Source: Planctomycetota bacterium (GTDB lineage Bacteria; Planctomycetota; Planctomycetia; Pirellulales; Pirellulaceae). Taken from it: a stretch of 64,000 nt of DNA. The DNA lies in contig JACNKX010000078.1 of the NCBI GenBank assembly GCA_014381825.1, positions 62,001 to 126,000 on the forward strand. The letters run 5' to 3'. Of the stretch, positions 38,121 through 64,000 are shown in pieces. The translations under genes were made by a program, and so were the position numbers. The notes under the pieces were generated by a model. It searched no databases and was not told where the DNA came from. It saw nothing but the letters and a program-made list of their open reading frames with translations. Every line of letters begins with the position of its first letter. Positions within the stretch are counted from its first letter, which is position 1.

Positions 38121-39239
38121 TTAGAACGGATAGTCCTTGAACAGGACCTTGCCAAGTCCGAGATAAGGGTCGTCGAGATCGGTGTTAAGTACTTCACGAT
38201 AGAGCCATTTGGTCAATTCACTGGGAACCAAGTGATGATTTTGGGCCAAGTGACGATGGACCTTGAGGCGTCGCGGGCCTTCGTTGATCCGCGTATCTTC
38301 GTCAAGTACAAAGGGATCGTGATCGGCGCGATCGCTCGGATTGATGTCCGCCGGACGAGCGGCGACGGCACGCGCCAGCAGACGGCGAGCGGGCTGTAGC
38401 ACGACGCGGACGCCTTCCTCGACAGCAACAATGGACAGGCGGTCATAAGGTATCTCAACCAAGCGGTCTGGTGCCGCACCCTGAGCCAGGGCCGCGGCTT
38501 GCCGTTCATGATACTCCGTTAAAGCCGCGTCGAGACCGTTTCGATCTGCACGTACAAAGCGATGGAGCCGCTCAAGCTCCATGACTTGGGCGAGGTAGGT
38601 TTCCGGATCGTAGATGCCGGGCAGAACATCGAGTACTCGACCGTCCACGTCACAGACGTAGGTCGCCACATTTCCGTTGAGCGTTCGCCGAATGACTTGG
38701 CCGTTGCCAAAATCGATTGTAACCCGCGGGACAGGACGGACCGATTGCCATACCGGCTCGAAGTGCTCATTCAATTCACGTGCCACGTCTTTGTCGGAGA
38801 ACAACACGGCTCTCGCAAGGCGCGCGTTGGTTCACGTGAATTCACGATCGAGTTGCCCCAGCAGCTGAAACAGCAGAATCGGTTTTCCCGATTGGGCGCC
38901 TGCTAATTTGGCGTGCTCCCAATCTGGATGCCAACGGACCAAACCGGGCTGAACTCTGGAATTCTCTTTCCCTTCTCCGAGCTCCTCACTCGGCGGCTCA
39001 TCGCCGGTCGTTTCCTTTCCGACGAGCGACTTAACAGACGATTCGATGACAAACTTGCGAGCATCGACGCTCTTGCGAACATCCGCCGCCTGTTCGGCGA
39101 CGACCACCTTAAGCGGCGTTTCAATCCGGCCTTTGCGCACATCAACTCGTTTCTCGCCCCGGCCCGCCGCCAAGCCTGTGAAGACCAGACACGCCACCAA
39201 TATCCGAATCCGATTTATTTGCATTGTATTTATTTGCAT
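38121..39239 (-). CDS. Thioredoxin-like protein with in-frame TGA (candidate selenoprotein)
   Basis: The reading frame runs from the ATG at 39239 (GGAG seven bases upstream) through a single TGA at 38832-38834 and on to 38121, 372 residues in all with the TGA as residue 136. Before it: a signal-like start (RIRILVACLVFTGLAAG), a charged linker, and GKPILLFQLLGQLDREFT. After it, without a break: TNARLARAVLFSDKDVARELNEHF and a second half. The two halves fit one thioredoxin-like protein in which the TGA falls at the end of the helix-strand core where a cysteine is expected in GKP-type proteins. A stem-loop at 38797-38814 fits a bacterial SECIS. Alternative: nonsense mutation of a former Cys/Trp codon. 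Confidence 0.75.
38797..38814 (-). promoter_or_regulatory. SECIS-like stem-loop after TGA of thioredoxin-like gene
   Basis: On the minus strand, GAGAGC pairs with GUUCUC (six pairs, one G-U) around loop CGUGUU. The loop starts 23 bases after the TGA and has G as its second base. Pairing was done by eye, with no energy calculation. Confidence 0.5.
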
Positions 39240-39342
39240 CGTAATGCTCCAGCATAAAGAACGTCGGTCCTGTCTACCGAACAATCATAAGGGCATCCGT
39301 CGGCCTAGTGGGTAACCGGTTTGTAACAGGCCGTCGCGAAGT

Positions 39343-51219: not shown

Positions 51220-51813
51220 CTACTGGGCCAAACCTAGAAGCTGCTTCACTAATGGCGTGATGTCTTCCTCGTAGTTGAATCCTTCGGGACCATACTTCTC
51301 TTCGTCGTTATTAAAGATCGTGTGCAGCTTGCCCTCGCGATCGTAAACGATCGCCGCCGGAATCGATGCGGTATTGATCTGCTTGAGAACTTCCTCATCC
51401 GCGCTACTCGAAATAAAATTCTGCATCGACGCTCGTCGAGATGTCAGGAATTTCAGGACGGGTGGCTTTACATCTTCCGGCTTGTTGCCGTCGCCTCCGT
51501 AGAAATCGATATTGAGAGAAGCGCAAGCCACGTCGCGTCCAAGATCGTCGTGCAACTGCACGAAGTGAGGAAACTCCCTCATACACGACGTTCACGAAGT
51601 CGACCAGACGTCGATAACAACGATTTTTCCCTGCTGGCTGGCAACCCACGGCTGGATCTCTTCCCAACTTTTGATATCGACCTGCACTTCCTGGGGCGTC
51701 GCCGCCGAGACCCGCGCCTCGGTGTGTTCAACGACAGGGTCAGCGGGCGAATTGTTGCAACCGATGGCCCATGAGACCAGCAACATCATCCCCGTCCAAC
51801 GCGTGAGACGCAT
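51220..51813 (-). CDS. TlpA-like thioredoxin lipoprotein with Sec in UxxC (in-frame TGA)
   Basis: Start ATG 51813, 197 residues with a TGA at 51592-51594 as residue 74. The N-terminus has a lipobox-like signal (GMMLLVSWAIGCNNS). Before the TGA: GKIVVIDVWSTS. After it: TSCMREFPHFVQLHDDLGRDVACASLNIDF. TlpA proteins read VVIDVWATWC-x-x-C-R.EFPH.V.LH, so TGA sits exactly at the first cysteine of the redox CxxC, giving UTSC with Cys77 intact. A stem-loop 16 bases after the TGA fits a bacterial SECIS. This is the best single case for selenocysteine here. Confidence 0.85.
51566..51581 (-). promoter_or_regulatory. SECIS-like stem-loop after TGA of TlpA-like gene
   Basis: On the minus strand UGAGGG pairs with UUCCUCA (five strong pairs and one G-U) around loop AGUU. 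The loop starts 16 bases after the TGA and has G as its second base. Without the G-U pair the loop is GAGUUU, beginning at 15 bases. Hand-folded. Confidence 0.5.
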
Positions 51814-51835
51814 TAAATCTCCTTGGCTACGCAGG

Positions 51836-53140
51836 CTATGCGATCAACTCGCTGATCGGAGACGCAGCCGGGTCGGCGATGGGCATCTCGCGGCCATCGA
51901 CGTCAAACGATCCGCTCGAATCAACGCCGACGGCTTGCATATAGGTGTGAAACAGATGCGCATGATCGACTTCGCGATCGGCGACCGCTGTGCCGTTGTC
52001 ATTGGTCTTGCCGATCACGGCACCCGGTTGAATCTTCGCACCACCGAGACAAACTGACCACGCCGTTCCCCAATGATCGCGCCCGTAGTTTTGGTTGATG
52101 TTCGGCGTACGACCGAACTCGGACATGACGACGATCAGCGTGCTCTCCAACATGCCTCGATCCGCCAAATCAGCGACCAACATTGCGAATGGCGAATCAA
52201 ACTCGCCGAGCTGTTCGATGTGAAAGTTGAAGTTTTCGTTGTGCGTGTCATAGTTCGAGTGCGTGACTTGCACGAATGTGATCCCGCTATCGAGAAGTCG
52301 TCGCGCGAGCAAGCAGTGACGACCGAAATCATGCGTGCCGTATCGGTCGTGATCTTGTTGCGGCTCTTTCGTGATGTCGAAAATCTCGCGTCGTTTCATT
52401 AACTCCAAGGCTTGCTCGTAGTTCGCTGTGTAGGCATCGGTCATCGCCGTCCGTCGTCGCAGCGCGAAGCGATCGTTGACCTTTCGGCGGAACGCTTGTC
52501 GCGCTAGTTCCGATTGTTCGCTGATCGCCTCAGGCCGCTCGGTGTTTTTAGGTGGCTTGCCATCGCCTAGCGAAATACTTGAATACTTGGGACCGAGATA
52601 GGCCGAATCGCTGCCGCGCCCACCGCTACCGCCGGGAGTGATGACGATGTGTCCCGGTAGCGAACTAGCTTGCGGTGACAGGGCTTTGGCGGCGACTGCG
52701 CCGATCCGGGGATAGTCGGCTGCTGGCGTCTGTCGCCGCCCGGTGAACATCGCGTATCCACCTTTGCCGTGATCGTTCTCTTTCGTGTTGATACTGCGAA
52801 CCAACGACAAATGCTGCATCTGTTTCGCTGTTTCTGGTAGCAGCTCGCAGATGTGTATCCCTGGCACGGCCGTCGGAATGGCCCGGAACGGCCCGCCGGT
52901 GTCTGTCCCCGGCTTGGGATCCCAGCTTTCCAATTGGCTCAAACCACCCGCCATATTCACGACGACGACACGCTTCTGGTCCTTGGCGAGTTGCATCGCC
53001 GAAGCAGGCTGAGCCAAAGCGCCTAGTCCACCGACTATGGGGCCCGCAACAACAGCTCCGGCACTCGCAGCGACTCCACCGAGAAACTGGCGACGTGCCA
53101 CGACATGTTCGTTCGTCCCACATGCGTATGAGCACTTCAT
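51836..53140 (-). CDS. DUF1501 Tat-exported protein
   Basis: This 434-residue protein has a Tat-like start (EHVVARRQFLGGVAASAGAVVAG), and the DUF1501 (sulfatase-like fold) pattern: RVVVVNMAGGLSQLESWDPKPG, HLSLVRSINTKENDHGKGGYAMFTGRR, SEFGRTPNINQNYGRDHWGTAWSV. The signature pairs with the DUF1549/DUF1553 gene directly upstream, a common planctomycete pair. The ATG at 53140 has AGAGGG upstream. Function unknown; a role in handling sulfated polymers or a membrane complex is proposed but unproven. Confidence 0.88.
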   Translation of the reverse strand: MKCSYACGTNEHVVARRQFLGGVAASAGAVVAGPIVGGLGALAQPASAMQLAKDQKRVVVVNMAGGLSQLESWDPKPGTDTGGPFRAIPTAVPGIHICELLPETAKQMQHLSLVRSINTKENDHGKGGYAMFTGRRQTPAADYPRIGAVAAKALSPQASSLPGHIVITPGGSGGRGSDSAYLGPKYSSISLGDGKPPKNTERPEAISEQSELARQAFRRKVNDRFALRRRTAMTDAYTANYEQALELMKRREIFDITKEPQQDHDRYGTHDFGRHCLLARRLLDSGITFVQVTHSNYDTHNENFNFHIEQLGEFDSPFAMLVADLADRGMLESTLIVVMSEFGRTPNINQNYGRDHWGTAWSVCLGGAKIQPGAVIGKTNDNGTAVADREVDHAHLFHTYMQAVGVDSSGSFDVDGREMPIADPAASPISELIA

Positions 53141-55756: not shown

Positions 55757-56848
55757 TTAAGAGCCTTTGGACCAAACGGTCGTCTCAGGATGAAAATCAA
55801 TCCACGCTGGCTTCAGTGAAACGATGCCCGGTAGCTTCCGTAGCTGTCGTCCTTCGTGTGCTTCATCGGCAGCCTCACCGGTGATCGGGTCCCATTCCGA
55901 TTGTTGCCGGTCGTCAACGAGCTTTCCTCCCTTAAAAGTAAAACTCATCTCTTGACCGGCAAAGATTCGACTGAAGACTGTCGCGGTTCCACTTTTGGGT
56001 TCAAAGACTGCGACAACCGGTTGTCCGGCAAAACGATCATTGATTACCAAGTCGATGCGTAGCGAGTCGAATCTCCAACAACGAGCTTTTCCATCGCCAA
56101 CCAATCCGATCACGAGCGCATCTGGCAAGGGATACGACGGGAGCATGATTTCGTTTAAATGCATACCGCGCCGGTACTCGTTGGTCGTTCTGGACATTTG
56201 CATTACTGTCGTGCTTGGATAGCGTTCGCGCCAGGAACCCCAGTCAGTCATTGTCGATGGGATCGCTTCTAACTTGCTGCCTTCGAGCGGACCTTGCATG
56301 GCCGTCCCAAGCAGATGACTCCACAGACTCTCCGTCTCCTGGTCGATCATGACCAGACTGGATCGCCAGAGCAGGCCGGATACCGCTAGTGTCAGTGTCT
56401 GGCCATTCACTTGCCGGACATACACGATGCCGTTATGGCAGAGATGTCACCACGTCGCGGCGATCGACCGTCCTCCTAACGTGTCATTGAAGATCTCACG
56501 TTCAGGCCCCGACATCACATTGATCGAGTACGCCCGGGCCTCGCCACCTATCTCAACTCCCAAAACCAATTCGTCATCGTCCAGCACAGTCGCGACCTCA
56601 TCGACCGACATGACTTGATAGCCGGTCACGACGGGTTGCCGTGGCACTGCCCGTTGGGGAAAGAAGCTCCCGTCCGCAGGTGGATTCTCTTCGATTAATC
56701 GAGGTGGCTCCTCGTCTGCAATCTGGGCTGCCTCTTGATAATCGGACCACCGTTCGACGAGCGCGGATAACACCACGAATCCGACAGCCGCTCCCACAAC
56801 TGTCAGAATTACTTGGCCAACCTTCGATGTGCTGGTTAATTGGGTCAT
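55757..56848 (-). CDS. DUF3179 membrane protein with Sec in UxLC (in-frame TGA)
   Basis: Frame from ATG 56848 (a GTG at 56860 is also possible) through a TGA at 56447-56449 to 55757: 363 residues with the TGA as residue 134. An N-terminal span (VILTVVGAAVGFVVLSAL) anchors it. Before the TGA: LGVEIGGEARAYSINVMSGPE, then FNDTLGGRSIAATW. After it: HLCHNGIVYVRQVNG and the core of the family (SGLLWRSSLVMIDQETESLWSHLLGTAMQGPLEGS). DUF3179 proteins have a conserved VTWCPLC or similar CxxC; here the first Cys is TGA, giving UHLC with Cys137 kept. A SECIS-like hairpin follows. Function of DUF3179 is unknown; probably an extracytoplasmic redox-active protein. Confidence 0.82.
56417..56431 (-). promoter_or_regulatory. 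SECIS-like stem-loop after TGA of DUF3179 gene
   Basis: On the minus strand GGCAU pairs with AUGUC (five pairs, one G-U) around loop CGUGU, which starts 20 bases after the TGA. Loop and spacing are the same as in the redoxin gene at 63159. Hand-folded. Confidence 0.5.
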
Positions 56849-57086
56849 TCTGGCCACCACTCTCTAGAATCGGCGCGAACTCGGAAGTGCGATCAACGTG
56901 GGTCACAGTCTAATGTTGCGAACGAACTCAGTTTGTGAGTTAATTAACAAGCGGTAACGGCAAACTACAGGCCGACGAAGATAATTAAAAAATAACTTGC
57001 TTCCCCGATAATTCGAGGGGTACACTGTGGCTTGCAGATTGTTGGCGTTGACCACTTCACGATGCGAATCACTTTTAGGAGTTGAA

Positions 57087-62993: not shown

Positions 62994-63158
62994 GGCAACA
63001 CCTTTAAACGTATTGATATGGACCAAGACACGGCGCGGATTTGAAGGTTCTCGAATATTCTGGCTGTTAGAAGCGCAGACGTTGTGTGCGCGCTTAATTG
63101 CGTGCAGAATGTGCAAGTGACCATTCTGCGTCGAGGAAGCAAGATTTAGGCATGTTCC

Positions 63159-64000
63159 ATGATTTCACAACGAACTGCTCGATTCTCTTTCGGCTTCGTA
63201 GCGATCCTCGCGGCGACTTCCATCCCCGCGGCAGATACTGAGAACATACGGTTCACACGCGAGGCCAATACGGTTTTTCTAAACGGCCCTGACGTCGCTG
63301 GCGAACTGGGCTACAAGTTCAAGATCGTCTCACCGCGTCTAGCGACGTTCTGTCGAGAAGGCTCGAGTGGCATCTGTATTCCCGTGCGATTGACGAAAGA
63401 GAATCATCGAGGCGCTGGCAAGGACTTGGTGGTCGCCGCCGATGTGTTGGCAAGTGCGTTGCGATTTCGCGTAACTGATATCGGTGAAAAGGCTAGAATC
63501 GCGAGATCGGAATTGCCGACTGTCGGAGGTGACATCGCGACACCAGCGTACAACGCTGCCTGGGGCAAAGGTCGCGGTTTCCGCCAGGGCGAGACGCTGC
63601 CTGACATACCACTGGTTAATTTAACGGGCGACGAAGTCCGGTTCTCTCAGTTTCTCGGCAAGCGATACATTTTGTATTGCTGGGCGAGTTGGTGAACGTG
63701 CCGCGCGAAGTTGCCCGTGTGGCAGCAATTGTTTGAGAAGTACGGCGACGAAGAGTTTACGGTGGTTGGCTTAGCGATCGACGCGGAAGGAATCGTGCCG
63801 GCGAAGCGGTACTACGACAAATACGGAGTGACGTTCCCATCGCTTGTCGACCCTGACTATGCGACTCAGTTTGGTGCCGTGCCAAAGACGTTCTTTGTCG
63901 ACGAGCAAGGCGTCGTTCAAGATTTGAAGAACTGGGAGCAGGAGCTCTCCTCACTCCGTACGGCAAAACCTGTGACGAGAGAGATTCGCTCGAAATGGTC
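63159..64000 (+). CDS. Secreted TlpA-like redoxin with in-frame TGA (candidate selenoprotein), 3' end outside window
   Basis: A signal peptide (FSFGFVAILAATSIPAAD) begins the protein. Residues 25-150 form a domain with DVAGELGYKF and VSPRLATFCREGSSGICIPV. The redoxin domain follows: GETLPDIPLVNLTGDEVRFSQFLGKRYILYCWASW, then a TGA at 63693-63695 (residue 179), then TCRAKLPVWQQLFEKYGDEEFTVVGLAIDAEGIVPAKRYYDKYGVTFPSLVDPDYATQFGAVPKTFFVD. The TGA follows WASW, exactly where TlpA proteins have the first redox Cys. Only one residue separates it from Cys181 (UTC), not the usual two. The frame remains open to the window end. A SECIS-like hairpin follows. Confidence 0.82.
63710..63726 (+). promoter_or_regulatory. 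SECIS-like stem-loop after TGA of redoxin gene
   Basis: GUUGCC pairs with GGCAGC (six pairs, one G-U) around loop CGUGU, which starts 20 bases after the TGA and has G as its second base. It fits the usual bacterial SECIS model. Hand-folded. Confidence 0.55.

Follow-up and report, generated by a model that had tools for sequence, protein, structure and literature searches.

The DUF3179 gene on the minus strand of the window (the whole 64,000-nucleotide stretch of DNA that was analyzed) is best read, at a probability of roughly 85%, as encoding an exported, membrane-anchored selenoprotein in which UGA134 is decoded by way of a hairpin and the selenol has a redox role. That the TGA is read as selenocysteine (Sec) is close to certain from the sequence data, and the selenoprotein assignment of the preliminary description is strongly supported by a conserved TGA, a SECIS-type hairpin, and a full Sec gene set.

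The gene and its in-frame TGA

With the TGA read as a residue, the gene (Table 1) is a single open frame containing only that one TGA, and an in-frame GTG at 56860 is a possible alternative start. ORF calling under translation table 11 cuts it at the TGA into 55757-56425 and 56447-56860; because plain ORF calling splits such genes in this way, Sec copies of DUF3179 in planctomycetes are easily missed. The match to the Pfam family spans both sides of the TGA (201.6 bits, E = 2.4e-59, cutoff 27, profile positions 11 to 292 of 292). The TGA stands in the context TW-U-HLC-HNG, and both the translation and the Pfam alignment confirm the earlier statement that TGA-CAT-CTC-TGC falls at the first Cys of the DUF3179 CxxC motif and yields UHLC.

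Table 1. Features of the DUF3179 gene in the window
Feature	Position	Strand	Remarks
DUF3179 selenoprotein gene (predicted)	55757..56848	minus	363 residues and a stop codon; start ATG at 56848
Hydrophobic N-terminal stretch, residues 12-31	56756..56815	minus	From translation
DUF3179 domain, residues 78-356	55781..56617	minus	Pfam PF11376
TGA codon, candidate selenocysteine U134	56447..56449	minus	Conserved column in relatives
TGC codon, Cys137, second residue of UxxC	56438..56440	minus	Translation and alignments
SECIS-type hairpin GGCAT-CGTGT-ATGTC	56417..56431	minus	Bases 19-33, with the T of TGA as base 1
Conserved motif D169-xx-T172-xxx-W176	56321..56344	minus	Alignment A3

The hydrophobic N-terminal stretch is probably a membrane anchor, judging from the translation; among 87 Sec relatives, 64 have a hydrophobic stretch ahead of the domain, 20 have none, and 3 are too short to judge. 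All 58 rows of alignment A3 are invariant at T132, U/C134, S157, D169, W176, and G181, and T172 is present in 56 of them.

TGA at one column among relatives

The scan of other DUF3179 genes for the same TGA, as proposed in the preliminary description, returned it at the same column in two collections. The first comprised 199 genomes from the bacterial family to which the source genome belongs, 94 of which have a DUF3179 match. With all stops read through, TGA was the sole type of inner stop among the matches listed; it occurred in at least 51 matches, and 49 of the 51 listed carry it at the U134 column, the other two (L050 and L083) having it elsewhere. At the first-Cys column of 102 aligned rows, the codon is TGA in 50 (49 distinct, since L102 is L003 again), TGC in 29, TGT in 13, and something else in 10, counts that are not prevalences because the rows comprise all 51 listed TGA matches plus chosen TGA-free ones. 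Eight of those 10 are the second half of the same protein and 2 are N-terminal halves without Cys, with Ser (L087) or Asn (L099) at the Sec column, indicating that not every DUF3179 member needs the reaction. The source genome has four DUF3179 matches: the window gene and one on another contig (C56), with one TGA each, and two TGA-free copies with Cys.

The second collection consists of 61 loci in named genomes labeled Planctomycetota, Verrucomicrobiota, and Poribacteria, plus one other bacterium and one haloarchaeon; most are metagenome-assembled genomes (MAGs), and individual taxon labels may be off. The Sec column of their 62 DUF3179 domains is TGA in 56, TGC in 4, and TGT in 2, although one of the two scan patterns spelled Cys at this position and so favored Cys copies. 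Some of these loci are contigs already present in the 199-genome set, and identical stretches were removed before the hairpin counts given below. As in bacterial selenoproteins, the in-frame UGA aligns with the Cys of homologues and the frame is conserved downstream.

Two variants of the domain were seen along the way. L063 (G076:C102) and L115, apparently the same contig, hold a tandem pair of DUF3179 domains, each with its own TGA and hairpin. A short DUF3179-like subfamily (L075 and L078-L082) has the motif USSE, that is, Sec without Cys at position +3.

A hairpin 3' of the TGA

The SECIS element of the E. coli formate dehydrogenase type is a hairpin just downstream of the UGA, with a small loop that exposes GU. 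A SECIS-type hairpin lies just 3' of the UGA in the DUF3179 gene. We compared folding with that of synonymous recodings of the same sequence. Over 48 bases from the TGA, the mean z was -0.60 in 48 Sec sequences versus 0.00 in 42 Cys sequences (P = 0.0014). These foldings pointed to one small hairpin, after which the stretch of bases 16-37 was picked; there, the mean z was -1.87 in 46 Sec sequences versus -0.04 in 42 Cys sequences (Mann-Whitney test, P = 5e-11, with related sequences treated as independent in this and the other hairpin tests). Individual P values fell below 0.05 in 22 of the 46 Sec sequences versus 1 of the 42 Cys sequences, and the window hairpin itself gave z = -1.82 (P = 0.044).

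Base pairing was analyzed in 84 distinct Sec and 47 distinct Cys sequences, named loci included. The pairs 23-29, 22-30, 21-31, 20-32, and 19-33 each show standard base pairing in 78 to 81 of the Sec sequences versus 12 to 36 of the Cys sequences. At least four of the five form in 79 of the 84 Sec sequences, which bears out the downstream SECIS conservation for which the preliminary description proposed a check, and the remaining five (L044-L046, L085, and L086) form a shifted hairpin.

In all 74 Sec sequences that encode Ile/Val-Val-Tyr here, base 1 of the Ile/Val codon is complementary to base 3 of the Tyr codon: 51 pairs are A-U (Ile with TAT) and 23 are G-C (Val with TAC). The choice of Tyr codon is silent, and the association is strong (Fisher exact test, P = 1e-19, uncorrected for relatedness). 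Loop bases 24 and 27 are also complementary in 74 of 74 (64 C-G, 6 A-U, and 4 G-C), and among 10 Cys sequences with Ile/Val-Val-Tyr, the stem-pair rule holds in 4 and the loop-pair rule in 2. On the best tree of 72 rows, both members change 8 times in the Ile/Val-Tyr pair and 7 times in the loop pair; only 2 independent pairs on starred branches bear on this covariation, too few for a formal test.

Searches of Rfam matched neither the whole window nor the TGA region with its hairpin. The Cys copy L109, the sister of a Sec copy, retains the loop and lacks the stem pairs. A candidate fossil SECIS in the Cys copy L032 (P = 0.005) was dropped, its hairpin being in another register and 42 Cys sequences having been tested.

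Selenocysteine machinery and gene surroundings

SelA, SelB, SelD, and tRNA-Sec all exceed their cutoffs in the source genome. SelB (352 bits) lies beside SelA (565 bits), SelD (345 bits) has one TGA of its own with a second SelD in a longer frame, and tRNA-Sec scores 67 bits against a cutoff of 47. Among 14 control genomes, the cutoffs were passed by tRNA-Sec in 5, SelA in 1, SelB in 2, and SelD in 2, so that a tRNA-Sec match alone proves little. ARAGORN found no tRNA in the window. SelA and SelB occur together in 35 of 37 genomes with a TGA-flagged DUF3179 match among the matches listed (34 of 36 without G021, whose TGA is off the column), versus SelB in 24 of 57 genomes with only TGA-free matches listed (Fisher exact test, P = 8e-8). 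Neither SelA nor SelB was found in the remaining two TGA genomes, G063 (82% complete) and G065 (86% complete).

The next genes on the minus strand encode a PSCyt2/PSD1 protein and a DUF1501 protein. A scan of the named loci covered 101 of the 119 nearest long ORFs, which were delimited by length and are not gene calls, and no Pfam family was present in more than 3 of the 101 (PSD1, PSCyt2, and two helicase domains). Gene context thus gives no function or pathway for DUF3179.

Other frames in the window also run through a TGA. Positions 63150-63998 (plus strand, TGA at 63693) encode, when read through, a Redoxin/AhpC-TSA-like protein with CWASW-U-TCR (Pfam E = 1.6e-14); a downstream hairpin has the same loop type, in a scan without a chance control that passed 11 TGA sites. 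Positions 51220-51843 (minus strand, TGA at 51594), just after the DUF1501 gene and on the same strand, encode a thioredoxin-like protein with VWSTS-U-TSC and Pfam matches below the cutoff. Both are probable selenoprotein genes by sequence. Positions 38124-39284 (minus strand, TGA at 38834), open on both sides of LDREFT-U-TNAR and with no Pfam match, are a possible further one. Across the source genome, 9 of 31 AhpC-TSA matches contain one or two in-frame TGA codons (their position was checked for the window copy only), as does the one SelD mentioned above, and its selenoproteome is possibly large.

Exchange of Sec and Cys

A tree was built from 126 N-terminal halves (81 Sec and 45 Cys, with rows of less than 140 residues and duplicates left out). 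It needs 10 Sec/Cys changes, at least 5 of them forced by starred branches, with the bootstrap not settled. L109, sister to a Sec copy on a starred branch, and L135/L140, placed within a Sec clade without a star, likely switched from Sec to Cys. The UIIC copies, nested among Cys copies on starred branches, likely switched in the opposite direction.

Position +3 is Cys in 78 of 87 distinct Sec domains, the others having Glu (6), Gly (1), Ala (1), or Thr (1), and in 43 of 47 Cys domains. Since it is not always Cys, neither a CxxC metal site nor a CxxC disulfide can be general. On these alignments, the second Cys of the DUF3179 motif is dispensable, and Cys137 is likely a resolving Cys that is not universal in the family. 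Sec and Cys usually replace each other where a thiol is reactive. Because they do so here, with at least five switches, and because position +3 is not conserved, the protein probably has a redox role. The preliminary description took the CxxC to be catalytic or redox active and not a structural zinc site; its reactive first residue is favored by these data, but the CxxC as such is not general.

The alternative that survives best accepts Sec and has the Sec or Cys bind a soft metal (copper, mercury, or zinc) without redox chemistry. UxxC and CPLC do look like metal-binding turns, and the protein looks exported, but the 9 Sec and 4 Cys domains without Cys at +3 speak against such a site, as do alignments A1 and A3, whose invariant or nearly invariant columns include no Cys other than those at 134 and 137. 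Sec is, moreover, seldom retained for mere zinc binding. We regard metal binding as unlikely.

Predicted fold

AlphaFold models were made of residues 58-363 (pLDDT 93.2, pTM 0.91) and of residues 73-217 alone (pLDDT 94.6, pTM 0.89), and the former consists of two similar halves with Sec in the N-terminal half only. Foldseek gave no match with E below 1e-3 for either model. For the whole model, the best E was 9.8e-3 (a Rieske ferredoxin complex) and the leading rows were nearly all Rieske proteins; for the N-terminal half, the best E was 0.1 (a chemotaxis protein, probability 0.12), with Rieske proteins from rank 4 at probabilities up to 0.90. VIA-align, which realigns Foldseek's own candidates, gave a best Z of 9.2 for the whole model (4p1b_H, 91 aligned, 2.4 Å), over the C-terminal half, and of 9.2 for the N-terminal half (2qpz, 92 aligned, 2.9 Å), where a best Z of 7 to 8 is common without kinship. 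We take the 50 rows listed per model to be Rieske-domain proteins. No thioredoxin-fold protein was among the structure matches listed, and a PDB sequence search with profile A1 gave no match up to E = 1. These models are suggestive of two Rieske-like halves.

The same likeness raises the alternative that DUF3179 is an iron-sulfur (Rieske) electron carrier with Sec as a cluster ligand, for which the 50 Rieske rows per model would speak. However, the CxH...CxxH motif of Rieske 2Fe-2S proteins occurs in none of the 58 rows of alignment A3. In addition, the span of the 1vm9 row and its number of aligned residues place U134 at chain residue 24-37 and D169 at 59-72; with the cluster ligands at residues 45, 47, 64, and 67, Sec would lie outside the cluster loops and D169-T172-W176 close to the second one. 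A Rieske carrier is thus very improbable. Tentatively, DUF3179 may instead be a duplicated Rieske-type fold without the cluster motif, whose redox site is one Sec or Cys residue on a beta hairpin far from the former cluster loops. It would then be a selenoenzyme class of Planctomycetota, Verrucomicrobiota, and Poribacteria in which Sec and Cys switched several times.

Readings without selenocysteine

Two further alternatives dispense with Sec, and we give hardly any credence to either. The first, a decaying gene whose TGA arose by nonsense mutation or through a sequencing error, requires a change of one base from TGT or TGC, and L050 and L083, with TGA elsewhere, look like such cases; against this stand the same TGA in dozens of assemblies from three phyla by their labels, hairpin pairing in the Sec and not the Cys copies, and a single TGA per domain in 104 of 105 Sec rows (L076 has three; some rows are the same contig in both collections). 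Reassignment of TGA in the lineage, for example to Trp, has nothing in its favor beyond the open frame and conflicts with the Cys of relatives at this column, the Sec genes of the source genome, and the use of TGA as an ordinary stop in 9 of the 33 long ORFs of the window.

Proposed mechanism

Our best guess is that the protein is an exported selenol/thiol redox enzyme. By analogy with Sec decoding in other bacteria, SelB carrying Sec-tRNA(Sec) would dock on the hairpin 18 bases after the U, and UGA134 would be decoded as selenocysteine. The later steps are less sure. U134 is predicted to sit at a beta-hairpin turn of the first Rieske-like beta domain, where its selenol may act as nucleophile in an extracytoplasmic redox reaction of the peroxide, sulfoxide, or disulfide type, perhaps assisted by the invariant T132, S157, D169, and W176. 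The oxidized selenium might then be resolved by Cys137 in most copies and by an external thiol in copies that lack it. DUF3179 thereby gains a defined candidate reactive residue, and its chemistry becomes open to test through the exchange of Sec and Cys, the dispensability of the second Cys, and the predicted fold.

Comparison with known systems

DUF3179 is already known as a selenoprotein family: tables in PMC9312934 (2022) and PMC13188914 (2026) both list DUF3179 (pfam11376) with the motif UxxC/T, so the preliminary description was mistaken in presenting this as the first sight of the family as a selenoprotein. A table in one further paper names a DUF3179 gene of Idiomarina, and a study of three planctomycetes reports selenoproteins in two, with a supplementary candidate list that may include DUF3179. 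The string "planctomyc" is absent from the main text of PMC9312934 and PMC13188914, and the passages of the DUF3179 and selenoprotein literature that we consulted contain no lineage spread, SECIS analysis, or Rieske-like prediction. New to us, relative to those passages, are the lineage spread, the SECIS, the repeated Sec/Cys switches, and the Rieske-like prediction without the cluster motif. PMC9312934 and PMC13188914 cite a study of the Olavius algarvensis delta-symbiont (Zhang and Gladyshev 2007, NAR 35:4952, reference 63 of PMC9312934), whose DUF3179 selenoproteins, as cited there, belong to the same Pfam family and have Sec first in UxxC/T. The present copies, in contrast, come by their labels from Planctomycetota, Verrucomicrobiota, and Poribacteria, with up to several per genome, and also include UxxG, UxxA, and UxxE.

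With the canonical bacterial SECIS, the DUF3179 hairpin shares its place soon after the UGA, a small loop, and an exposed GU, but it has a short stem of 5 to 7 pairs that is built from the Ile/Val-Val-Tyr codons. The Cys relatives (CPLC and CTLC, including L001 in the source genome) have the same DUF3179 domain with Cys at the Sec column and differ in having a TGC or TGT codon and no conserved hairpin there. E. coli NirD (2jo6) aligns with each of the two models (Z of 7.9 and 7.5) and, like the small subunits of nitrite reductases, is presumably a Rieske fold without a cluster. Unlike NirD, the DUF3179 protein is duplicated, is predicted to be membrane anchored, and carries Sec or Cys on a hairpin.
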